Assembly: GCA_024743275.1 (NCBI GenBank)
Contig: JANSWW010000004.1
Coordinates: 186,001-250,000 of the forward strand
Length of the DNA: 64,000 bases
Reading direction: 5' to 3'
DNA from: Alphaproteobacteria bacterium
GTDB lineage: Bacteria; Pseudomonadota; Alphaproteobacteria; JANSWW01
Positions 6,493 to 50,410 of the stretch are shown here, piece after piece. The position numbers and the translations under genes were made by a program. The notes under the pieces are model-generated. The model made no database searches. It had not been told where the DNA came from and saw only the letters and a program-made list of their open reading frames with translations. Numbering within the stretch: the first letter of the stretch is position 1; the number at the start of each line of letters is the position of its first letter.

Positions 6493-7508
6493 ATCCGCCG
6501 ACCCGTGTCTTTGTCGAAGAGGTGAACCGCGGCCTCGTCCTTCGGGGCGAGCGACAGGGTCGTGCCTTGCGTCACCTTCGCGTTCCCCGGCAGACGGATC
6601 AGCAGGGCGTCGCCCGTGGGCAGTTGCGCGTGGACGATGGTGTCGGCCCCGAGGGGCTCCACCAGATCGACCGTCGCGCCGATCGGCCCGCCGTCGGCGA
6701 CGACCAGGTGCTCCGGCCGGATCCCGACCGTGAGCGGCCCCCTATCGGTCGGCAGCGAAAGACCGGGAAACGCCGCCGCGTCCAGCAGGTTCATCGCCGG
6801 CGAGCCGATGAAGCCGGCGACGAACACGGTTTCCGGATGCTCGTAGAGATCGATGGGCGAGCCGATCTGCTCCGCCACGCCGGCGTTCATCACGATGAGC
6901 CGGTCGGCCATGGTCATCGCCTCGACCTGATCATGGGTCACATAAAGGCTCGTCGTGCCGAGGCGTCGCTGTAGCTTGCGGATCTCGACCCGCATCTGGA
7001 CCCGCAGCTTGGCGTCGAGATTGGACAACGGTTCGTCGAACAGGAAAACCGAGGGCTCCCGCACGATCGCCCGGCCCATGGCGACGCGCTGGCGCTGGCC
7101 GCCGGAGAGCTGGCGCGGGCGCCGCTCGAGATAGGGCCGGAGCTGCAGCAGATCGGCCGCTTCCTCGACCTTGGCGCGGATCTCGTCCTTCGGCAGCTTC
7201 CGCAGTTTCAGGCCATAGGCCATGTTGTCGAAGACGCTCATATGCGGATAGAGCGCGTAATTCTGGAACACCATGGCGATATCCCGGTCTCGCGGCTCCA
7301 GGTTGTTGACCAGCTTCTCCGCGATATGGATTTCCCCGTCGGAGATCTCCTCCAGGCCGGCCACCATGCGCAGCAAGGTCGACTTACCACAGCCGGACGG
7401 GCCGACGACCACGATGAACTCGCCGGTCTGGATTTCCATGGAAACGCCATGGATGACGGGCGTGTCGCCATAGGCCTTCTTCACATCCCGAAGGGTCACG
7501 GTGCTCAT
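6489..7508 (-). CDS. ugpC: ABC importer ATPase, UgpC/MalK type
   Basis: The 339-residue ATPase drives the sugar/glycerol-3-phosphate importer encoded just upstream. It has Walker [10 protein letters not shown] (residues 36-44), the Q-loop [14 protein letters not shown], the signature [10 protein letters not shown], Walker [13 protein letters not shown] and the switch His in [16 protein letters not shown]-type regulatory domain follows after residue 235 (GIRPEHL). It is the last gene of the minus-strand ugpB-ugpA-ugpE-ugpC order, directly after ugpE. The symbol rests on gene order and similarity; a related carbohydrate phosphate or glycerol substrate is possible. Confidence 0.85.
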
Positions 7509-8357
7509 TTATTTCTCCGCATCGATAAGGCCTTTGACGAACAGGCCCTGCATGGCGATGACCACGACCACCGGCGGGATCATGGCAAGGAAGGTGGTGG
7601 TCATGATGATGTTCCATTCGGGCACGGACTCGCCGACCCGCAGCATCCGCTGGATGCCCATCACCACGGTGTAGAAATCGCTCTCGGTCGTGACCAGCAG
7701 CGGCCAGAGATACTGGTTCCATCCGAAGATAAACAGGATGACGAAAAGGGCCGCGATGTTGGTCCGGCTCATCGGCACCACCACGTCGACCAGGAAACGC
7801 ATGGCGCTCGCCCCGTCGATGCGGGCCGCCTCCATCAACTCGTCCGGAATGGTCATGAACACCTGGCGGAACAGGAAGGTCGCGGTCGCCGACGCGATCA
7901 GCGGCAGGATCAGGCCGGTATAGCTGTTGAGCAGGTTGAGGCCGGCGACCACCTCGAAGGTCGGCAGAATCCGCACCTCGACCGGCAGCATCAGGGTGAT
8001 GAAGATCATCCAGAAGAACAGCATCCGGAAGGGAAACCTGAAATAGACGATGGCGAAGGCCGACAGGATCGAGATCACGATCTTGCCGACCGTGATGCCG
8101 ATCGCCATCACCAGACTGTTGACCATCATCAGCCAGGTCGGCGGCGTGCCGGAGGTCGACCGGCCGACGAACAGCACCTCGTTGAGGTTGTTCCAGAGCT
8201 GATCGCCGGGCAGCAGCGGGATCGGCACCTGGAGCAGCGCCTGCGGCCCATGGGTCATCGCGATGACGGTGACATAAATCGGAAACGCGACGACCGCGAC
8301 GCCGAGCACCAGGAAGGCGTGGGACAGGAAGGTGAGATAGGGGCGGCGTTCGACCAT
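7509..8357 (-). CDS. ugpE: ABC importer inner-membrane permease, UgpE type
   Basis: The 282-residue permease has about six transmembrane segments. The EAA cytoplasmic loop that docks on the ATPase reads [24 protein letters not shown] near residue 186. This EAA...G pattern and the 280-residue length are standard for the MalG-type partner. It overlaps ugpA by one base and abuts ugpC, indicating one transcript with translational coupling. Confidence 0.86.
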
Positions 8358-17248: not shown

Positions 17249-17325
<77 letters not shown>

Positions 17326-17563: not shown

Positions 17564-19804
17564 CTAAGGCTTCAGCACCCTGAAGCCGACGGTCTGCAGA
17601 CGCCTGGTCTGGGGCATTTTGTGGCGGTTGGCCGAGCGCAGCGATTTCGCCGTGTTGATCCAGGCGCCGCCGCGCACGGACCGCGCCTGGCATTGGGCGG
17701 CGCCGGACGCGCCGGTCCCGTCCAGGGAGGCGTTCTCCAGCCCGCCCGTGAAACAATCCAACGTCCATTCCCAGACATTGCCGGCCATGTCGTAGAGACC
17801 GTAGCCATTGGCCCGGAACTGGCCCACCGGGGCGGTCGTCGCAAAACCGTCGTCGCAGCGCCCGGCACCGGCCTCCGCCCCCCGTCCATTGGCATGGTCG
17901 CAGACCCGGCCGGCGTCGTCGCCCCAGGGATAGGCGGACTCCGCCCCGCCCCGTGCCGCATACTCCCACTCCGCCTCGCTCGGCAAACGGTAGGTCTCAC
18001 CGGTCTCCGCGCTCAGCCAGTCGGCATAGGCGACCGCGTCCTCCCAACTGACGCAGACCACCGGATGGTGCGGGCTTTGGGCAAAACCGGGATCACGCCA
18101 GGACAGGGCCGGGTCGAGCACCAGCCCGCCCGGCGCGGGTTTGTAGCAGCCCTTACCGGGCGCGCGGCCGGTCGCCTCGACGAAGGCGGAGAATTCGGCC
18201 ACGGTCACCTCATGGGCGCCGATATCGCGGGGCGCCGGCACGCGGATGCGGGTCCGCGGCCCCTCGTCGGCGTTGCGGCCCCGCTCGCTGGGCGGCGAGC
18301 CCATCATGAAACTGCCCGCCGGGATTGGCGCCAGAACCGGGCAATGGGGGCAGTCCCGGCCGGGGGCGCCGGACGGAGCGGGAGCGGACGATCGGGTGAC
18401 GGCGGCCAATTGGGCGCTGCCGCCACCGCCGGAACCAGTCCCGCCCTGACGGGCCGCCTCGTCGCTGAAAGTGCCTTGCGGCATCATCACGAGGTAGATA
18501 TCGGCGCCCGCCTTGCCCTGATCCTTGACGGTCTCCCAGAGGTCGACATCCGCCTCCAACCCGTCGAGCGGCCGGACCTTGCGCTGCAGGCCGGCGGTGA
18601 CATCGCCGCTCGGGACAAAACCGCTGAGCCCGCCCCGGCCGATGACCAGCGTCCAGCCGCCCCCCTCGCCGCCCCCTCCAATGGGACCCCAGACCTTGAC
18701 CACCTCGCCGGGGTCGACGGCGGCCCTGGCGGCGGATCCGCTCTGGGGCAGGGCCACCAATAGGATCGGGCCCGCACCGCCCCCGGAGGACGCGGACGAG
18801 GGAGCGGCGGAGCCGAGGGCACTCTTGGCGAGCGACGGCGTGCGGATCTCCTCGATCAGAGCCTTCGCCTCGTCGCGGTAGAAGCCGTTGGGATAGCGGT
18901 CGAGATAGCGTTCGATGTATTCGGCGTCACCGGTGTCCTTGACCGCGTTCCACAATACCCGCTCGGCATTGTCCGGGGCCGCCGGTTTGGACGGTAATGC
19001 GGCGGTGACCTGCGGCACAGGGGGCGGAGCGTTGCCGGCCGAGCCGGCGAAATAGAAGTCGGTCAACAGCGAGGAACTGTCCCAGGGGCGCTGCTGGCCC
19101 TCGGTTTCCTGCAGGACCGAGGCGCGGACCCGAGTCAGCATCTGGCGGACTTCGAGACCGGGCTGTTCGATATAGTCGAGCAGCGCACCGGTAAACGGAC
19201 TGTTCGCCCCGTCGCCGTCATAGGCGACATTGCCGGGCTCGGTCGCATAGGCGATCAGGGTGCCGATCCCGCCCTCCACCTTGGCGAGCCCCCGCGTCGC
19301 CCCCGAGGACCGGGTTCCGAAACGCCGGGTCATCTGGGCCGAGAACGGATTGTCGCGGCAGGCGTCGAGGAAGATCAGCGCGGTATCGACCGCCGCCTCC
19401 ATCGGACCGACCAGGGCCTGCATTTCGAGCGCTTCCCAACGCAGATCGTCCTCATGGGCCAGGGTTGCGTCGACCGGGATGAGATAATTCGACCCACCGA
19501 CCTGCATGGCGTGGCCAGCATAGAAGAGCAGCCCGACATCGGCGCCGCGCAGGATGTCGATGAACCCCCGGACCCGTTTTTCCAGCGATGCCTTGTCGGC
19601 GTCGATTACCTTATGGACCTCGAAACCGAGACGTCCGAGGGAGTCCGCCACCGCATCGGCGTCCCGCCGAGGGTTCACCAAAGACGGGGCGTTCGCATAG
19701 GTGCCGTTGCCGATCACCAGGGCGACCCGCCGCTCGGCATGGCCGGGCGCGGTCAGCGCGAAGCAGACAAGGAACCCGACGACGGCGACCAGAAGAAAAC
19801 GCAT
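17564..19804 (-). CDS. Secreted caspase-like protease fused to a formylglycine-enzyme-like domain
   Basis: The 746-residue protein starts at ATG 19804, which gives a clean signal peptide ending GHA (residue 23). A caspase (C14) domain spans about 25-250, with His98 in FYAGHAMQ and Cys149 in FLDACRDNPF as the catalytic dyad. Two related motifs follow (WNAVKDTGDAEY...YPNGFYRDEA near 310, and LWETVKDQG...MPQGTFSDEA near 440), with SH3-like sequence between. The C-terminal domain (about 480-744) resembles FGE-sulfatase/SUMF1: FMMGSPPSE, LPSEAEWEYAARGG, DMAGNVWEWT, GFRVLKP. It lacks the paired active-site cysteines (SLRSANRHK instead), so it may bind rather than modify. It is the last gene of the six-gene export cluster. 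Confidence 0.88.
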   Translation of the reverse strand: MRFLLVAVVGFLVCFALTAPGHAERRVALVIGNGTYANAPSLVNPRRDADAVADSLGRLGFEVHKVIDADKASLEKRVRGFIDILRGADVGLLFYAGHAMQVGGSNYLIPVDATLAHEDDLRWEALEMQALVGPMEAAVDTALIFLDACRDNPFSAQMTRRFGTRSSGATRGLAKVEGGIGTLIAYATEPGNVAYDGDGANSPFTGALLDYIEQPGLEVRQMLTRVRASVLQETEGQQRPWDSSSLLTDFYFAGSAGNAPPPVPQVTAALPSKPAAPDNAERVLWNAVKDTGDAEYIERYLDRYPNGFYRDEAKALIEEIRTPSLAKSALGSAAPSSASSGGGAGPILLVALPQSGSAARAAVDPGEVVKVWGPIGGGGEGGGWTLVIGRGGLSGFVPSGDVTAGLQRKVRPLDGLEADVDLWETVKDQGKAGADIYLVMMPQGTFSDEAARQGGTGSGGGGSAQLAAVTRSSAPAPSGAPGRDCPHCPVLAPIPAGSFMMGSPPSERGRNADEGPRTRIRVPAPRDIGAHEVTVAEFSAFVEATGRAPGKGCYKPAPGGLVLDPALSWRDPGFAQSPHHPVVCVSWEDAVAYADWLSAETGETYRLPSEAEWEYAARGGAESAYPWGDDAGRVCDHANGRGAEAGAGRCDDGFATTAPVGQFRANGYGLYDMAGNVWEWTLDCFTGGLENASLDGTGASGAAQCQARSVRGGAWINTAKSLRSANRHKMPQTRRLQTVGFRVLKP

Positions 19805-19831
19805 GGTCCAGTCCTCAGCGAAAGCGCCCAC

Positions 19832-20575
19832 TCATTGGCCGGGCAGGATGTGAAACTCCACCCGGCGGTTGATGCCGTCCGCGGGTTTGGTGGGATCGTA
19901 GGGCTCCGCCATCCCTCTGCCGATGGCCGCCAGGCGGGTCTGATCGATCTTCAGCGCCGTCAGCAGATCCCGGACGGCCTTCGCCCGCTTGTCCGAGAGC
20001 TGCTGATTGTAGGCGGCACCGCCCAGCGCATCTGTATGCCCTTCGATCACGAAGGAGCAGTTGGACAGTTGCGCACTGTTCATGGCCCCGGCGAGCTGCG
20101 CGACCGTCGCGATCGCCTCGGGTGTCAGCTCATAGGAATCGAACTCGAAGGCGATCTGAAGGGCCAACGCGCCCTCCTGGCAGGACGGGGCCGGGGCAGC
20201 CGCTTGCTGTTGCGTCTGCGCTTCCGCCTGCGCTTGCGTCTGCGCTTGTGTCTCTTGGGCCGGTTGCTCCGCCGGTTGTTCGGCGGCGGCTTCCTGTTGG
20301 GGCGCCTGCTGCTGCGGGGCGGGCTTCTCGTCGTGGAAACGGATCGAGCGCCAGGAGCGGCTGACCATCGGTTTGGCGCCGGTCTCGGTTTCGGATGACG
20401 CGCCCTCGGATGGCGCTTGGGGCACCGTCCAACCGCGGGTCAGCGCGCGGACCATCTGGTCCTGTCCGGCATCCGGGGAAAGCATGACCGGCGGCGTATC
20501 GCCGGCACCGGCCGGTGTTGCGGTCAAAAGGCCTCCCAGGCCGCAGACAACGGCGAAACCAAAGATCTTCTTCAT
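19832..20575 (-). CDS. OmpA-domain secreted protein
   Basis: The 247-residue protein has a Sec signal (MKKIFGFAVVCGLGG..., cleavage near AGA, residue 25). A Gln/Ala/Glu-rich linker covers about residues 85-135 (PQQQAPQQEAAAEQPAEQ). A C-terminal OmpA peptidoglycan-binding domain (about 140-247) has FEFDSYELTPEA, IEGHTDALGG and the family end INRRVEF. The start MKKIF is chosen over an upstream ATG because AGGAGGAGAGACC directly precedes it. It is 27 bases before the caspase-like gene and is likely co-transcribed. It probably anchors the cluster's products to the wall. Confidence 0.88.
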   Translation of the reverse strand: MKKIFGFAVVCGLGGLLTATPAGAGDTPPVMLSPDAGQDQMVRALTRGWTVPQAPSEGASSETETGAKPMVSRSWRSIRFHDEKPAPQQQAPQQEAAAEQPAEQPAQETQAQTQAQAEAQTQQQAAAPAPSCQEGALALQIAFEFDSYELTPEAIATVAQLAGAMNSAQLSNCSFVIEGHTDALGGAAYNQQLSDKRAKAVRDLLTALKIDQTRLAAIGRGMAEPYDPTKPADGINRRVEFHILPGQ

Positions 20576-20633
20576 GGTCTCTCCTCCTTCATTCATTCCG
20601 TCCCGAAGGACAGCAAATACCGCGCCATCCTCC

Positions 20634-20972
20634 CTATGACCCCTGGTTCAAGACCCGGCACGTCGCATCGCCGATCGAGAGGATCGTCACGGTCCGCCGG
20701 GCACCGCCGGCGTCGGCCAGCGAGATCCGGTTGCCGGACAAAGCGTCGGTCGCCGAAACGGTTCCATTGTCGACCCGTTCCCGCAGGATTTCCTCGCCGT
20801 CCTGCCAACAGGTGACCTCGACCGTCCCCGGTGTGCCCGGGAAGGTCAGGGCGCCCGCGCCAAGGCTTTCGGCCTGGGTTTTGGGCGCCGCCGAGGCGGG
20901 TCCGCCGAGAAAGGCCACCGCCAGCAGGGTCAGGACCAGACCGGAGATCGGGAGGGTGGGTCGTGTGTGCAT
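20634..20972 (-). CDS. Small secreted protein of unknown function
   Basis: The 112-residue product has a clear signal peptide (hydrophobic residues 9-25, cleavage after PASA). The mature part is about 84 residues with two cysteines (VTCWQDG near 55 and DATCRVL near 105) that could form a disulfide, and beta-rich sequence between. I do not recognise a family. It lies between the CsgG-like gene and the OmpA gene with 9- and 58-base gaps, so it is part of the same transcript. A periplasmic accessory role, like CsgE/CsgF, is a guess from context only. Confidence 0.7.
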   Translation of the reverse strand: MHTRPTLPISGLVLTLLAVAFLGGPASAAPKTQAESLGAGALTFPGTPGTVEVTCWQDGEEILRERVDNGTVSATDALSGNRISLADAGGARRTVTILSIGDATCRVLNQGS

Positions 20973-20981
20973 GGAGTCCTC

Positions 20982-22529
20982 CTAACCCGCGATCCGGATC
21001 GGCAGGCGGACATGGGTGAGGCCGACCGGGTCGATCCGCTGGAATTCACCGAGCACGCGGTCGAGGGACGTGACATTCGGGATCGGCCGCAGATCCTGCT
21101 CCATCATCCAGGGCGGCAGACCGATGCCGAGTTCCCGCTTGGACGCGACGCAGTCGACCGCCTCCTCCGCGCCGGGAAACTCCGCGAGGATGCTGAACTT
21201 GCCGTGGCTGCCGGGAATGTCGATCCGCTTGCCGGGATTGACATAGGCGTTGGGCTGGAACCGGTTCGGGAAGATGCGGGAGATCAGGCCCGCCCCGTCG
21301 AGATAGTAGCAGTACATGTAGGCCCCCTCCTGCGGCTGGAAGGAGACGGTGATCTCCTCGCCGATGCCGAAGGTCGGGGTGCGCCCCTTATTGGTTGTCA
21401 GGCCGAAGGCGACCTGCTGGCCAAGCGGCGCCGCGGCGCCGCTATCGTCCGTGCTGGCCGGGAACAGTTGCGCGCCGGCGTCGAGCTTGTCCTCGATCAC
21501 CAGCAGATCGCGCTGCAGCATGTCGAAGAAGACCGCGAAGTCCAGGCGTCCGTTGGGGATCAGATCCGCCTCCGCCTGGAAGCGGCTGATGGCCCGCCGG
21601 GTCGCGTCGTCGAGCCGGCCGCTGGGAGCCCCCGAGTAGTAGCCGGCGCCGATCAATGCGGTTTGGACCGCCGCGACGATGTCGGTCTCCGGGGTCGAAT
21701 CGAACCATTCGCGCGCCTCCGCCATGATCGCCGGATTGGTCGCCGGAATATCGAGGCAGCGCCAATAGGGAACCTTGGTCAGCTTGCCCATGAGCTCGAT
21801 CAGCGATAGCTCGACCAGCGTGCGAACCGACTGATGGGTCCCTTCGCTGCGGTCCATCGACAGTTCGAAGAAGATGCCGACCTTCCCGATCAGCCCGTCG
21901 AAATCGCCGCCGGTGCCCGACCGGGTGACGGTGATGGAATTCGTCGCGGAGATGCCCGGCAGGATCTGTCTGGTGATCATGTCGCCCATATTCAGGTCCA
22001 TGCCGATCACCGAGGCGATCCGGTCCGTCGCCGCCCCGACCGCGACACCGCCATAGGCGACCCCACCACCGGCGGAGTCTGCCGTGACGCCGGAATCGAG
22101 CTGGGTGATCGCACCCCTGATGTAGTAGCGCGGCACGTCGAAGCCGAGATCGGTGCGAATACCGATCAGATTATGGAGGTCCTGAACCCCGATCTGGGTC
22201 GGATCATAGTCGACGAAGCGAAAGGCGTTGCTCTTCACCGACATCTTGGAGATGGCGGAGATCATCATCTCTTTCGTCCCGGCCTGAATAAGGCCGGTGG
22301 CGTCCGGCAACCCGGCGCTGGTGATGATGATGTCGCTCTTGCCATAGCGGGCAAACAGATCGTCCATGCAGCGCAGCGCCGGCGTAAAGCTGGTCACCGT
22401 CTTCACCGGCGGCGTCTTGGGCTGCGCGACAATGGTCGCGGTCTCCGGGTCGGCGAAGGTGGAACACGCCGCCAGGAGAAGAAGCGCGCCGGCCGACATC
22501 ACGCCCGAGACTAGTCTGCTGCTACCCAC
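20982..22529 (-). CDS. CsgG/HfaB-like lipoprotein with peptidoglycan-binding and DUF4384-like domains
   Basis: The 515-residue protein starts at GTG 22529 after GGGAG. The lipobox LLAAC puts the lipidated Cys at residue 22. Residues about 45-265 follow the CsgG pattern (DATGLIQAGTKEMMISAI, PRYYIRGAITQLDSGV, VIGMDLNMGDMITRQIL, SVRTLVELSLIELMGKL); CsgG/HfaB forms the outer-membrane channel for curli or holdfast-anchor subunits. A peptidoglycan-binding_1-type domain follows (about 280-345), then a DUF4384-like domain (about 385-470, FGIGEEITVSFQPQEGAYMY). CsgG alone is about 270 residues, so the two added domains are unusual. It likely exports the repeat protein encoded upstream. Confidence 0.8.
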   Translation of the reverse strand: MGSSRLVSGVMSAGALLLLAACSTFADPETATIVAQPKTPPVKTVTSFTPALRCMDDLFARYGKSDIIITSAGLPDATGLIQAGTKEMMISAISKMSVKSNAFRFVDYDPTQIGVQDLHNLIGIRTDLGFDVPRYYIRGAITQLDSGVTADSAGGGVAYGGVAVGAATDRIASVIGMDLNMGDMITRQILPGISATNSITVTRSGTGGDFDGLIGKVGIFFELSMDRSEGTHQSVRTLVELSLIELMGKLTKVPYWRCLDIPATNPAIMAEAREWFDSTPETDIVAAVQTALIGAGYYSGAPSGRLDDATRRAISRFQAEADLIPNGRLDFAVFFDMLQRDLLVIEDKLDAGAQLFPASTDDSGAAAPLGQQVAFGLTTNKGRTPTFGIGEEITVSFQPQEGAYMYCYYLDGAGLISRIFPNRFQPNAYVNPGKRIDIPGSHGKFSILAEFPGAEEAVDCVASKRELGIGLPPWMMEQDLRPIPNVTSLDRVLGEFQRIDPVGLTHVRLPIRIAG

Positions 22530-22559
22530 TACGCTCTCCCATGGATGATCGAATTATTC

Positions 22560-22877
22560 TTAATTACAGAGGCTTATCACGTCGCCTCGGATTATCGTCG
22601 TGACTTCGCGGGGCGCTCTCTGGCCCTCTTCAACCTCGACATTGCCTACATTCGTATTGCAGTCGCGGGTAACCAAGCCGGGCTGGCTGCGGACGGCCCC
22701 GGTCGCCTTGGCCCGCGACGAGGACATGGAACGTCCGATCTTGGCCTTGTCCTTCGGTTTCACCATCGACCGCTGATTGATCTGCTGCGCCTCCGCGACG
22801 GTCGCCGCCGGGGGCGCGACCACGAGGAGCCCGGTCACCATGAGAAGGGCCGCTACGACCGAGATCGTTCTTTTCAT
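22560..22877 (-). CDS. Small secreted protein of unknown function
   Basis: The 105-residue product begins MKRTISVVAALLMVTGLLVV with a signal cleavage likely after AEA (residue 30). The mature part is basic (KPKDKAKIGRSMSSSRAKATG) and then has a beta-like section with DCNTNVGNVEVEEGQRAPRE and ends ISLCN, giving two cysteines about 30 residues apart. It sits between the repeat protein and the CsgG-like gene on the same strand. The NTNVGNVEV wording recalls the repeat protein's beta-type sequence. No family recognised. It could be a minor fibre subunit or nucleator. Confidence 0.7.
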   Translation of the reverse strand: MKRTISVVAALLMVTGLLVVAPPAATVAEAQQINQRSMVKPKDKAKIGRSMSSSRAKATGAVRSQPGLVTRDCNTNVGNVEVEEGQRAPREVTTIIRGDVISLCN

Positions 22878-22985
22878 GTGGACACCTCCCCGGGGTGTTG
22901 CAGATGAACGGCAGGGGCCGGGGGCACCCCAACACAGTACCCCCGGCCCGCTGTGGATTGTCGAGTTTCCGTTCAGGAGACCCGA

Positions 22986-23393
22986 TCAGTCGCCGATGCC
23001 ACCGATCTTGGTGGTGGACTTGGCACCCCGGCCGACGGCGGCATTGGTGGAGCTGTTGACGACGGTGGTCTGCTCGACGTCACCGCGGACCTTGGCGTTG
23101 CGGACATCCCCGATCGAGGTCGTCGCCTCGGCACCACGGCCGGCCGCGACATTGGCGCTCTCGCCGACGACGGTGGTCTGCTCGACATCGCCACCGACAT
23201 CGGTGCCGCCGCCGACCGTGCCGATCGTCGTGGTCGCTTCAGAACCCGTGCCGAGGGAGACGTTGGCGTTCTGATCGACAACAGTGGTCTGCTCGGCATC
23301 CCCGCCGATCTTCACACCGCCCGACTGCTGGGCCAGGGCCGGAGCGGCGAAAAGGGTGGCGCTGACGGCGGCGGCAAAAAAGAGCTTGTTCAT
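22986..23393 (-). CDS. Small secreted protein with three ~36-residue repeats (candidate fibre subunit)
   Basis: The 135-residue product has a signal peptide cleaved after ALA (residue 21). The rest is three repeats: EQTTVV occurs at residues 34, 71 and 107, each preceded by GD and followed by (S/N)ANV, a GxG turn and a TTxIG strand. Alternating Thr/Val strands with Asn/Gly turns suggest stacked beta-solenoid rungs, as in curli CsgA and HfaA-like proteins, although the motif is not the CsgA S-x5-Q-x-G-x4-N-x5-Q pattern. It is the first gene of the cluster, with SD GAGGAG before the ATG. Function is inferred from the CsgG-like neighbour. Confidence 0.75.
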   Translation of the reverse strand: MNKLFFAAAVSATLFAAPALAQQSGGVKIGGDAEQTTVVDQNANVSLGTGSEATTTIGTVGGGTDVGGDVEQTTVVGESANVAAGRGAEATTSIGDVRNAKVRGDVEQTTVVNSSTNAAVGRGAKSTTKIGGIGD

Positions 23394-23748: not shown

Positions 23749-24819
23749 CTAGATCGGGGAGCGGGTCACGGGGGCGGCTCCGGCCGCGCCCGCCACGCCG
23801 CGCCGGTCGATGAGGGCGTCCGCCGCTCCGGCCCCGATCCACATGGCCAGGAGCGCCACCCAGGCGGTGGCAGACATTACCGACCCACCGGTAATTCCTG
23901 CCCCCACGGCGCACCCGCCGGCCAGCATCCCGCCGAATCCCATCAAGACCGCCCCCGCCAGATAGCGCCGCATACCGCTTTGCGCGTCGAAGGTCTGGAC
24001 CTTGAACTCCCGGCGGCCGACGGACATCAAGAACGATCCCGCGAACACGCCCGGCACCAGCCCGAGACCGAATTCCGGCTCGAGAGCCGGCATTGTAATC
24101 AGGGCCATCAGCGTATCGGCCGACGGGCCGGTGAAGGTGACGCTGCCCACCGGGACCGGATCGAAGGCGACCTCCGCCAGCGCCGCCGTGAACGCCCAAC
24201 CGGCCGCCACGGAGCCGCCGACCAGGGCCGACGCCACGACCGTCGTCCAGGCGAGCCGATGCCGCCAGGCCAGCGCCAGGGCGAGGATCACCGTGCCGGC
24301 CCCGAGGACCAGGCCGCCGCCGGCGGGAAGATGCAGCATCAGATTGCGCGTTTCGGGACCGACGATCCACCAGGCCGACAGCGCCTCTCTTGCCGGCGAC
24401 AGAACGCCGGTCAGGGCCGCCTGGGCGACCACCGTCACCAAAAGGCCGGTCACCAGGGCCCGCAGATTGCCGGTCGCCGAGAGCACCAGCAGGCGGCTGG
24501 CACAGCCCCGCGCCAGGATCATCCCGACCCCGAACATCAGCCCGCCCAGAATCGCGCCCGACATCGTTCCGGCGGCGGAGAGCTGCCTGATCTCGGTTTC
24601 CGGCAGCCTGCCGTCCGCCATCAAGGCTTGGACGGCGAACAGCGCGGTCCCGAACACGAACAGCCACACGGCCACCTTCGGTCCGAGGTTGCCGCGCCAG
24701 AACTCGATACAGGCGCTCCGCAGGCAAAACCTGCTGGATTGGGCGAAAGCCCCGAAGATCAACCCGACCGCCAATCCACCGATCCAGGCCTTCGCCGGAT
24801 CGGACAGCGCGTCGCTCAT
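23749..24819 (-). CDS. YeeE/YedE-family (thiosulfate/sulfur) transporter
   Basis: The 356-residue membrane protein has about nine to ten hydrophobic segments and the YeeE/YedE signature cysteines: ARGCASRLLVL near residue 104, AGGCAVGAGITGG near 310 and SRFCLRSACIE near 30. TsuA-type members pass thiosulfate through such cysteines. ATG 24819 (MSDALSDPAKAW) is chosen over upstream frames because GGAAGAG precedes it. Its promoter region carries an FNR-type box, and a 93%-identical copy of that region with the first six codons lies at 26995-27109. Some family members move selenium or sulfide forms. Confidence 0.82.
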   Translation of the reverse strand: MSDALSDPAKAWIGGLAVGLIFGAFAQSSRFCLRSACIEFWRGNLGPKVAVWLFVFGTALFAVQALMADGRLPETEIRQLSAAGTMSGAILGGLMFGVGMILARGCASRLLVLSATGNLRALVTGLLVTVVAQAALTGVLSPAREALSAWWIVGPETRNLMLHLPAGGGLVLGAGTVILALALAWRHRLAWTTVVASALVGGSVAAGWAFTAALAEVAFDPVPVGSVTFTGPSADTLMALITMPALEPEFGLGLVPGVFAGSFLMSVGRREFKVQTFDAQSGMRRYLAGAVLMGFGGMLAGGCAVGAGITGGSVMSATAWVALLAMWIGAGAADALIDRRGVAGAAGAAPVTRSPI

Positions 24820-24916
24820 CAACCACTCTTCCAAGCCATCTCTCCCCGGGGGGCGACCCCTCCACCGGTTAATCCTAGAGAAGCCGCCGGCCGCACCGCC
24901 TTGACCCACATCAAGG
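24802..24916. repeat. 115-bp direct repeat, left copy (yedE start and promoter)
   Basis: These 115 bases, covering the first six yedE codons, its ribosome-binding site and its promoter, recur without gaps at 26995-27109 with 8 mismatches (about 93% identity). The pair brackets the island. Confidence 0.85.
24901..24914. promoter_or_regulatory. FNR/FixK-type box upstream of yedE-like gene
   Basis: TTGACCCACATCAA matches the FNR consensus TTGAT-N4-ATCAA with one change. Its centre is 88 bases before the yedE ATG, compatible with an activator at about -41 of a transcript with a short leader. It suggests control by low oxygen through an FNR, FixK or FnrL protein. Confidence 0.6.
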
Positions 24917-26869: not shown

Positions 26870-26994
26870 ATGACCAAGCAACAGAAAATCACCCTCAGCG
26901 CCTCGCGCGACATCCCCTTCAACAAGCTGATGCTCAGCCCGTCGAACGTGCGCCACGTCAAGGCGGGCGTGTCGATCGAGGAACTGGCCGAAGA
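26870..26994 (+). pseudogene. Truncated plasmid-type parB (N-terminal 41 codons)
   Basis: MTKQQKITLSASRDIPFNKL followed by SPSNVRHVKAGVSIEELAE is the N-terminus of a ParB/Srx-fold nuclease-like protein of alphaproteobacterial plasmids and integrative elements. A GGAGGTATCCCG sequence precedes the ATG. The reading then enters the right 115-bp repeat (from 26995) and continues as meaningless sequence to a TGA at 27095. About 90% of the gene is missing. Bases 26768-26869 hold only its leader. Confidence 0.65.
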
Positions 26995-27109
26995 GGACAG
27001 CGCGTCGCTCATCAACCACTCTTCCAAGCAATCTCTCCCCGGAGGGCGCCCCCTCCACCGGTCAATCCCGGAGAAGCCGCCGGCGCCGCCGCCTTGACCC
27101 ACATCAAGG
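26995..27109. repeat. 115-bp direct repeat, right copy
   Basis: This copy has 107 of 115 bases in common with 24802-24916 and is in the same orientation. It holds the first six codons and promoter of a yedE-like gene, now ending in the parB fragment. It lies just upstream of the site-2 protease gene. The remaining bases to 27218 are that gene's leader. Confidence 0.85.
27094..27107. promoter_or_regulatory. FNR/FixK-type box upstream of site-2 protease gene
   Basis: TTGACCCACATCAA, identical to the box at 24901, lies 112 bases before the protease ATG. It is in a suitable place to activate that gene under low oxygen. Both copies are fully conserved although the repeats differ elsewhere. Confidence 0.55.
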
Positions 27110-49414: not shown

Positions 49415-50410
49415 ATGTTAACCAAAGCTGTGTCCCCTAAGATCAGCACCCAAAAGGCCACCCGAATGGAACATGCGCTATCCTTGTTCTTGTACTCCCT
49501 TACCGGCGGAAAACCCTATCTCTCGGAGGCGTTCGCGGGTCAGCAGCCCGACGCGTTCCGGACACTTTTTATGCAATCTTTGATTGATTATATAGAAGAG
49601 GAACAGAATCCCGAGAGTTTTGAAGCCGTCGAAGTCGGAAGCTGGGTCGGGGCGTCCACCCTCAATTGGCTGGATTCGTTCGCCCATCATGGCTGGGACA
49701 GGGCGCATATCACCTGCTGCGACGCGTGGGAAAACACTTACGGACTGGCGGGCTTGGAAGGGCACTATCCCGCCCCGATACCGCTGGACGACACATTGGC
49801 GGTCATGGCGACCGCCCTCAACACCGGCGTCGCCGAAGCCTTGTTCCGCCACAACATCGCCGTGTCCGGCCATAAGGAGAAGGTCACGATCGTCAAAGGC
49901 CTGTCCCAGCGAACCCTGCCACGCTTGCGCAGCGAGGGATTCGACATGGTCTTCATCGACGCCTCCCACGCCTACACACAGGTCCGGAGCGACATTCACG
50001 AGGCGAAAAGGCTGGTCAAGGACGGCGGCTTCGTGTGCGGCGACGATCTGGAACTCCAATGGTCGGAATGCGATCGAACCGCCGTCGAGCCCTACATCGA
50101 GAAAGATTGCATCGTCGATCCGGGCGCCGACCGATACTTTCATCCGGGCGTCAGCAAGGCGGTCGATGAGGCATTCGGCTCCGTTTCCGTCTATTGGGGG
50201 TTTTGGGTCATGCAGCGGGTCGGGGACGAATGGCGGAAGGTCGATTTGACCGGCCTTCCCTTGCGACTGCCCCGCGGTATCGGCGACAAGGAGAAAGATC
50301 TGATCGGCTCTTTTCTCCAGGCCTATCAAGACAGTTTCAAGCTCGGGGACGCGGGCAGGCAGCTCAGGCGCCAATTCTCCTCCGGGAAATTCCATACGAC
50401 CGGAGCCTGA
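49415..50410 (+). CDS. Class I SAM-dependent methyltransferase (Methyltransf_24 type)
   Basis: The protein of up to 331 residues has a SAM-binding Rossmann core: EAVEVGSWVGASTLNWL near residue 70, VTIVKGLSQRTLP near 157, and FDMVFIDASHAYTQVRSDIHEAKRLVKDGGFVCGDD-type strands near 175-210. This is the Methyltransf_24 (O-methyltransferase-like) wording. The C-terminal 100 residues have no known domain. The start may instead be M18 (MEHALSLFLYS). Substrate unknown; neighbours give no clear pathway. The 238 bp upstream show no feature. Confidence 0.75.
   Translation: MLTKAVSPKISTQKATRMEHALSLFLYSLTGGKPYLSEAFAGQQPDAFRTLFMQSLIDYIEEEQNPESFEAVEVGSWVGASTLNWLDSFAHHGWDRAHITCCDAWENTYGLAGLEGHYPAPIPLDDTLAVMATALNTGVAEALFRHNIAVSGHKEKVTIVKGLSQRTLPRLRSEGFDMVFIDASHAYTQVRSDIHEAKRLVKDGGFVCGDDLELQWSECDRTAVEPYIEKDCIVDPGADRYFHPGVSKAVDEAFGSVSVYWGFWVMQRVGDEWRKVDLTGLPLRLPRGIGDKEKDLIGSFLQAYQDSFKLGDAGRQLRRQFSSGKFHTTGA

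Follow-up and report, generated by a model that had tools for sequence, protein, structure and literature searches.

A window of 64,000 nucleotides (nt) from Alphaproteobacteria bacterium (GTDB lineage JANSWW01; assembly GCA_024743275.1, contig JANSWW010000004.1, positions 186,001 to 250,000) contains a locus of six genes for exported proteins that probably encodes a curli-like (type VIII) system for export and surface assembly, with subunits, accessory proteins, and a protease of its own. The evidence consists of a conserved association of the genes, homology of one product to CsgG, and signal-peptide-bearing repeat proteins that are confidently predicted to be beta structured. We also propose, more tentatively, that the locus could represent a separate class of bacterial surface-fiber system, in which a loop-less, peptidoglycan-anchored CsgG-type exporter would serve a new family of beta-stack proteins with repeats of ~36 amino acids (aa), along with a processing protease of the caspase type and a pair of small accessory proteins containing Cys, in at least four classes of Proteobacteria. 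No description of the gene set was found in the literature searched, which leaves out most subscription papers and bioRxiv.

The six genes lie in a row on the minus strand, from position 23393 of the window down to 17564, with intergenic gaps of 108, 30, 9, 58, and 27 nt. The initial annotation had described six consecutive minus-strand genes for exported proteins, and this description holds: all of the open reading frames are in place, and all six products have N termini that resemble signal peptides, as judged by eye. For the OmpA-domain gene, whose open reading frame opens at 20596, the start at 20575 with a signal peptide (MKKIFG) is preferred; for the caspase gene, whose open reading frame opens at 19831, the start at 19804 (MRFLLVAV) is preferred. 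A promoter and terminator scan gave signals near chance level. The features of the locus are as follows.

22986..23393, minus strand: g1, exported repeat protein of 135 aa, proposed surface-fiber subunit (open reading frame with signal peptide, repeats, AlphaFold2 model)
23208..23314, minus strand: g1 repeat copy 1, N-terminal (65% identity to copy 3)
23097..23203, minus strand: g1 repeat copy 2 (72% identity to copy 3)
22989..23095, minus strand: g1 repeat copy 3, C-terminal, the reference copy (DNA repeat comparison)
22560..22877, minus strand: g2, small exported protein of 105 aa, proposed secretion or assembly accessory (two invariant Cys, conserved C terminus)
20982..22529, minus strand: channel gene, CsgG-type lipoprotein of 515 aa, proposed outer-membrane export channel (GTG start; lipobox LLLAAC, Cys22; CsgG domain at about residues 30 to 262)
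21531..21680, minus strand: peptidoglycan-binding domain of the channel protein, PF01471 (PG_binding_1), residues 284 to 333 (E = 1e-10)
21135..21371, minus strand: DUF4384 domain of the channel protein, residues 387 to 465 (E = 5e-17)
20634..20972, minus strand: g4, small exported two-Cys protein of 112 aa (at 10 of 31 loci; family-less)
19832..20575, minus strand: OmpA-domain protein, proposed peptidoglycan anchor (PF00691, E = 1e-20)
17564..19804, minus strand: exported caspase-domain protein with a C-terminal FGE-sulfatase-type domain (Pfam and NCBIfam)
19052..19732, minus strand: caspase domain, Peptidase_C14 (PF00656), His-Cys dyad motifs AGHAMQ and LDACRDNP (E = 6e-39)
17573..18328, minus strand: FGE-sulfatase-type domain, PF03781 (E = 1e-61)

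The product of the channel gene has a predicted CsgG-like domain that is a remote member of its family, with a homology that is weak in Pfam and secured by profile-profile alignment and fold comparison. Its score against the Pfam CsgG model was 16.4 bits (E = 0.006), under the cutoff of 20.8, and its best whole-domain model match was HfaB of NCBIfam, with 24.8 bits (E = 1e-5), far under the cutoff of 300. Alignment with hhalign of 12 full-length channel relatives to E. coli CsgG and ten strong alphaproteobacterial CsgG-family proteins gave a probability of 97% over 223 columns, covering the whole domain and spanning both transmembrane-hairpin segments, including the Gly-rich transmembrane segment TM1. 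When the AlphaFold2 model of the channel protein (predicted local distance difference test [pLDDT] score, 70; predicted TM-score [pTM], 0.56) was searched with Foldseek, CsgG (4uv2/4uv3) made up 14 of the 15 significant PDB matches and the top ones among them, with modest TM-scores of ~0.4 on the target. Sequence searches of PDB with the channel protein and g1 returned nothing, or chance matches only. Together with the lipobox, these results uphold the identification in the initial annotation of a CsgG/HfaB-like lipoprotein, and the extra domains that it reported on the channel are accounted for by PG_binding_1 and DUF4384.

The g1 protein consists of three ~36-aa repeats preceded by a signal peptide. 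A period of 37 stands out above composition shuffles (z = 8.4), and at the DNA level the three 107-nt copies start at 22989, 23097, and 23208, with spacings of 108 and 111 nt. AlphaFold2 predicted an all-beta structure with a pLDDT of ~95 across the repeats, each repeat having one 15-residue strand and short strands, and from this secondary-structure pattern a solenoid-like arrangement, as for stacked coils, is expected. The single match of g1 in Pfam and NCBIfam was to the Pfam model OMP_b-brl, which fell below the cutoff (0.0013) and has no clear meaning. In a fold search with the g1 model the top match was the amyloid FapC, below significance (E = 0.003, probability 0.47). The source genome carries a second g1 gene with 67% identity (L101:7682-8086, minus strand; contig C17, ~49681-50085) that is unlinked to the channel gene. 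It is solitary, flanked on one side by a SelO/YdiU-like gene, which is followed by a small open reading frame, and on the other by an ABC-transporter permease operon. Among the repeat proteins found beside channel genes, the repeat period is 35 to 40 residues (36 to 38 in most), even where the sequence has diverged; the proteins mostly have 2 or 3 repeats each, with 6 to 8 at L019. The L015 locus contains two near-identical genes for 205-aa repeat proteins (754-1425 and 6941-7612, minus strand) that are ~6 kb apart, a probable recent duplication of a subunit gene.

Linkage of the genes, which the initial annotation had staked on their co-occurrence elsewhere, is borne out by other genomes, as the gene set is conserved across the alpha-, beta-, gamma-, and deltaproteobacteria. 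A scan of 84,980 genomes recovered 11 loci with a full-length channel gene (38 to 49% identity), from Roseicella, Marivibrio, Magnetospirillum fulvum, a Rhodospirillales metagenome-assembled genome (MAG), gamma- and betaproteobacterial MAGs, and Desulfobulbaceae and deltaproteobacterial MAGs. Further searches for the channel at an E value of ≤1e-20 matched 14 of 385 genomes of the class and 19 of 399 of the phylum, some of these matches being to one domain only. With 20 more neighborhoods added and all of them scanned with iterated profiles, 31 distinct loci were counted, two of which are contig ends. Repeat proteins are present at 23 of the 31, belonging to the g1 family at 18 loci, frequently with two or three adjacent genes, and divergent at 5 (L014, L015, L062, L065, and L079; the neighbors at L062 were left untyped by Pfam). 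The other partners are g2 (21 loci), an OmpA-domain gene (21), a caspase-domain gene (15), and g4 (10). The commonest order is g1-g2-channel-(g4/OmpA); in the beta- and deltaproteobacterial loci the channel gene is upstream of g1, g2, and OmpA, which keep their relative order and are followed by more repeat proteins.

Among the genomes sampled, the g1 family was confined to those with the channel gene. A g1 profile that was seeded from the window and genome-contig loci only, and not from the 399-genome sample, and is therefore non-circular, matched 8 of the 399 genomes, all of them channel positive (7 of 7 without the source genome; hypergeometric P of ~1e-10, uncorrected for relatedness). Among 230 genomes of the class it matched the source genome only, and none of the 229 others. 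A g2 profile matched 12 of the 399 genomes, all channel positive and with g2 adjoining the channel gene; this co-occurrence is partly circular, as some of the seeds had been taken from these 399 genomes, and four of the matches were not seeds.

The mechanism that we infer starts with export of all six proteins by Sec. The CsgG-type lipoprotein would then oligomerize to form a channel in the outer membrane. Its own peptidoglycan-binding domain would fasten it to the cell wall, perhaps together with the OmpA-domain partner, which has a short family motif (R-x-I-x-F/V) between its signal peptide and a Gln/Pro-rich linker. The g1 protein and its unlinked paralog would traverse the channel in the unfolded state and, once outside, would fold as beta-rich stacks, which would polymerize end to end into a surface fiber or adhesive layer. 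The small proteins g2 and g4 match no Pfam or NCBIfam family above chance and may have accessory roles, as a chaperone, gate, cap, or nucleator. For g2, which has two invariant Cys and a conserved C terminus resembling VxGDVINVCK, this role is a guess; its place is one that small accessory factors occupy in curli. The exported caspase-like protease may trim subunits or remove them, either in the periplasm or on the cell surface. Of the surface-fiber export reading in the initial annotation, the homology of the channel and the restriction of the g1 family to channel-positive genomes among those sampled now stand on observation; pore formation, exit of g1, and fibers or amyloid continue to be inferred.

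Several observations weigh against such a system. The constriction loop of CsgG, which contains Tyr51, Asn55, and Phe56, aligned to a gap, and the loop is absent from all 12 of the channel members. In CsgG this loop is a highly conserved, pore-narrowing element (PMC4389571), and gating of substrates by a channel without it cannot match that of curli. The AlphaFold2 model of the channel is weak around TM1, a hydrophobic-moment test did not settle the transmembrane hairpins, and the lipobox Cys is absent from the beta- and deltaproteobacterial members. At six channel loci (L075 to L078, L064, and L066) no recognizable repeat protein was found nearby, and no CsgA, CsgE, or CsgF was detected in the source genome. 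CsgE and CsgF are also absent from many alphaproteobacterial curli systems (PMC3521004). The missing loop, the missing lipobox Cys, and hairpins that are not proven would suit a poreless periplasmic complex, as would the DUF4384 domain and the two peptidoglycan-binding modules. In such a complex the CsgG-domain lipoprotein would remain on the periplasmic face, like other lipoproteins of the CsgG fold, and would form with OmpA, g2, and g4 a scaffold that is bound to the wall and controlled by the caspase, with the repeat proteins as periplasmic or cell wall structural components. We consider this improbable, however, given that the alignment covers both of the CsgG hairpin segments, TM1 included, and that the occurrence, next to a CsgG homolog, of genes for small beta-repeat proteins with signal peptides suits export better than a scaffold.

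In its overall layout, the locus resembles curli. In E. coli curli (CsgA to CsgG), a gene for a CsgG-fold lipoprotein is likewise accompanied by genes for exported beta-repeat subunits and accessory proteins, both of small size, and two related subunits are encoded per genome (CsgA and CsgB; FapB and FapC are similar), as with the two g1 genes here. The locus nevertheless differs from curli in that its channel is a remote homolog with no constriction loop and with added peptidoglycan-binding and DUF4384 domains, its subunits have 36-aa rather than 22-aa repeats and no curlin motif, CsgC, CsgD, CsgE, and CsgF are absent, and OmpA and caspase genes are added. PF07012 curlin repeats were not found in the source genome, the QxGxxN motif is essentially absent from the g1 family, and the published minimal curli repeat (PMC3521004) fits essentially none of the 37 family members. 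A classical curli system elsewhere in the source genome was considered and rejected: the channel gene of the locus is its only CsgG-family gene, and no curlin, CsgE, or CsgF was found in it.

The Hfa system of Caulobacter (HfaA, HfaB, and HfaD) likewise combines a CsgG-type outer-membrane lipoprotein with small surface proteins in the Alphaproteobacteria, and HfaB is the closest NCBIfam model to the channel protein. At the cell surface HfaB anchors HfaA and HfaD, the latter of which is not a curlin of the classical type (PMC6707917). This precedent for surface display by a CsgG-type protein suggests a different function for the locus, namely, that of a surface anchor in which the CsgG-type protein sets on the outer membrane a limited coat of repeat proteins that tethers a further polymer, polysaccharide or an S-layer, with no long fibers. 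The peptidoglycan-binding parts suit an anchor, as do the short subunits of only 2 or 3 repeats at most loci. Although this is the strongest of the alternatives, we regard it as unlikely: the score of 24.8 against 300 bits is far from that of an HfaB, the domains and partners of the locus are additional to those of Hfa, and g1, g2, and g4 matched no Hfa model in NCBIfam, where the presence of HfaA and HfaD models was not checked. Polymer subunits are instead suggested by the presence of multiple paralogous repeat proteins at a locus and by the 6 to 8 repeats at L019.

The Fap system of Pseudomonas (FapA to FapF) resembles the locus in repeat length (38 to 39 aa versus 35 to 38 aa, with three repeats per subunit here) and in encoding a cysteine protease in the cluster, FapD being a probable one (PMC3792158), although FapD and the caspase are of different kinds. 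The subunits of the locus lack the long linkers of Fap, and neither a FapF transporter domain nor a FapD C39-type protease domain is present among the six window genes, to which the FapF search was confined. The repeats in the window share the motif NVAAGxG with FapC repeats (retrieved for the motif tests with a consensus query). In the g1 family this motif is restricted to L068 and to the type found in the window, and none of the 37 family members fits X15 G X4 N X3 G X6 N X7, the repeat pattern published for Fap (PMC3792158). Kinship of g1 with FapC was considered and dropped as the motifs are not family wide, leaving a resemblance. By these comparisons the locus is not a member of curli, Hfa, or Fap proper, in agreement with the initial annotation, which had set it apart from curli and Hfa by content. 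The subunits form a separate family that may plausibly function like curlin or FapC.

The attached protease noted in the initial annotation proved to be frequent (15 of 31 loci), though not universal. The caspase domain of the window gene is, by sequence, a predicted Peptidase_C14 homolog with the His-Cys dyad retained; dyad motifs are found in 16 of the 19 caspase-domain open reading frames across the loci, this one included, and the source genome has exactly one caspase-domain gene, which is that of the locus. Subunit processing or clearance is a natural guess for its function, given the dyad motifs and the export. Fusion to an FGE domain is limited to four loci, all alphaproteobacterial. 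The caspase-FGE architecture is long known and common (33 of 671 metacaspases) and was described without any tie to a CsgG-type channel (PMC3501461); being an old and common architecture that is found here in only four loci, the FGE part is not core to the system. The frequency of the caspase and the retention of its dyad motifs could also point to a programmed-death or defense module centered on it, in which the remaining genes would constitute an envelope sensor. Such a function is highly unlikely because few parts of the set are less constant than the caspase, which half of the loci lack, whereas repeat proteins, g2, and OmpA are retained; the caspase furthermore carries a signal peptide and has an architecture of wide occurrence.

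Some loci have additional features. The channel relatives at L020, L022, and L024 lack the lipobox Cys and have an extra N-terminal segment (~DNDGFFTDGVTSDKERA) after the signal peptide. At L020, L022, and L023, from the beta- and deltaproteobacteria, three genes that were not seen at alphaproteobacterial loci lie between the channel gene and g1; they encode a DNRxKARxY-repeat protein, an exported protein of ~110 aa, and a protein of ~300 aa with a metallopeptidase-like HEISHGEYYT motif. Neither the repeat protein nor the metallopeptidase-like protein has a Pfam family. At some alphaproteobacterial loci, genes for a CHASE2-cyclase and a Crp/Fnr-type regulator (L015:4244-6857) or for a Crp/Fnr-type regulator (L063:7241-7966) adjoin the channel gene, hinting at possible cyclic-nucleotide control in these lineages. 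In the window, a YeeE/TsuA-type sulfur transport gene (PF04143; 23749-24933, minus strand) lies directly upstream of the operon and is not conserved at the other loci inspected. The only tRNA gene of the window, for tRNA-Arg(CCG) (17249-17325, plus strand), lies directly downstream of the last gene of the operon in the opposite orientation. A 137-nt direct repeat with 88% identity (24780-24916 and 26973-27109) flanks a stretch upstream of the operon.

The CsgG-linked gene set, with its own family of repeat subunits, is real, conserved, and widespread. If it encodes the proposed system, it would constitute a further conserved route to surface fibers beside curli and Fap, one that joins a curli-type exporter to subunits of Fap-like repeat length. 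The absence of the constriction loop makes the selection and holding of unfolded substrates by CsgG-type channels testable by comparison. The system would also provide a concrete substrate context for bacterial caspases, the targets of which are mostly unknown, and its subunits, being small and regular, could be considered for use as self-assembling biomaterials.

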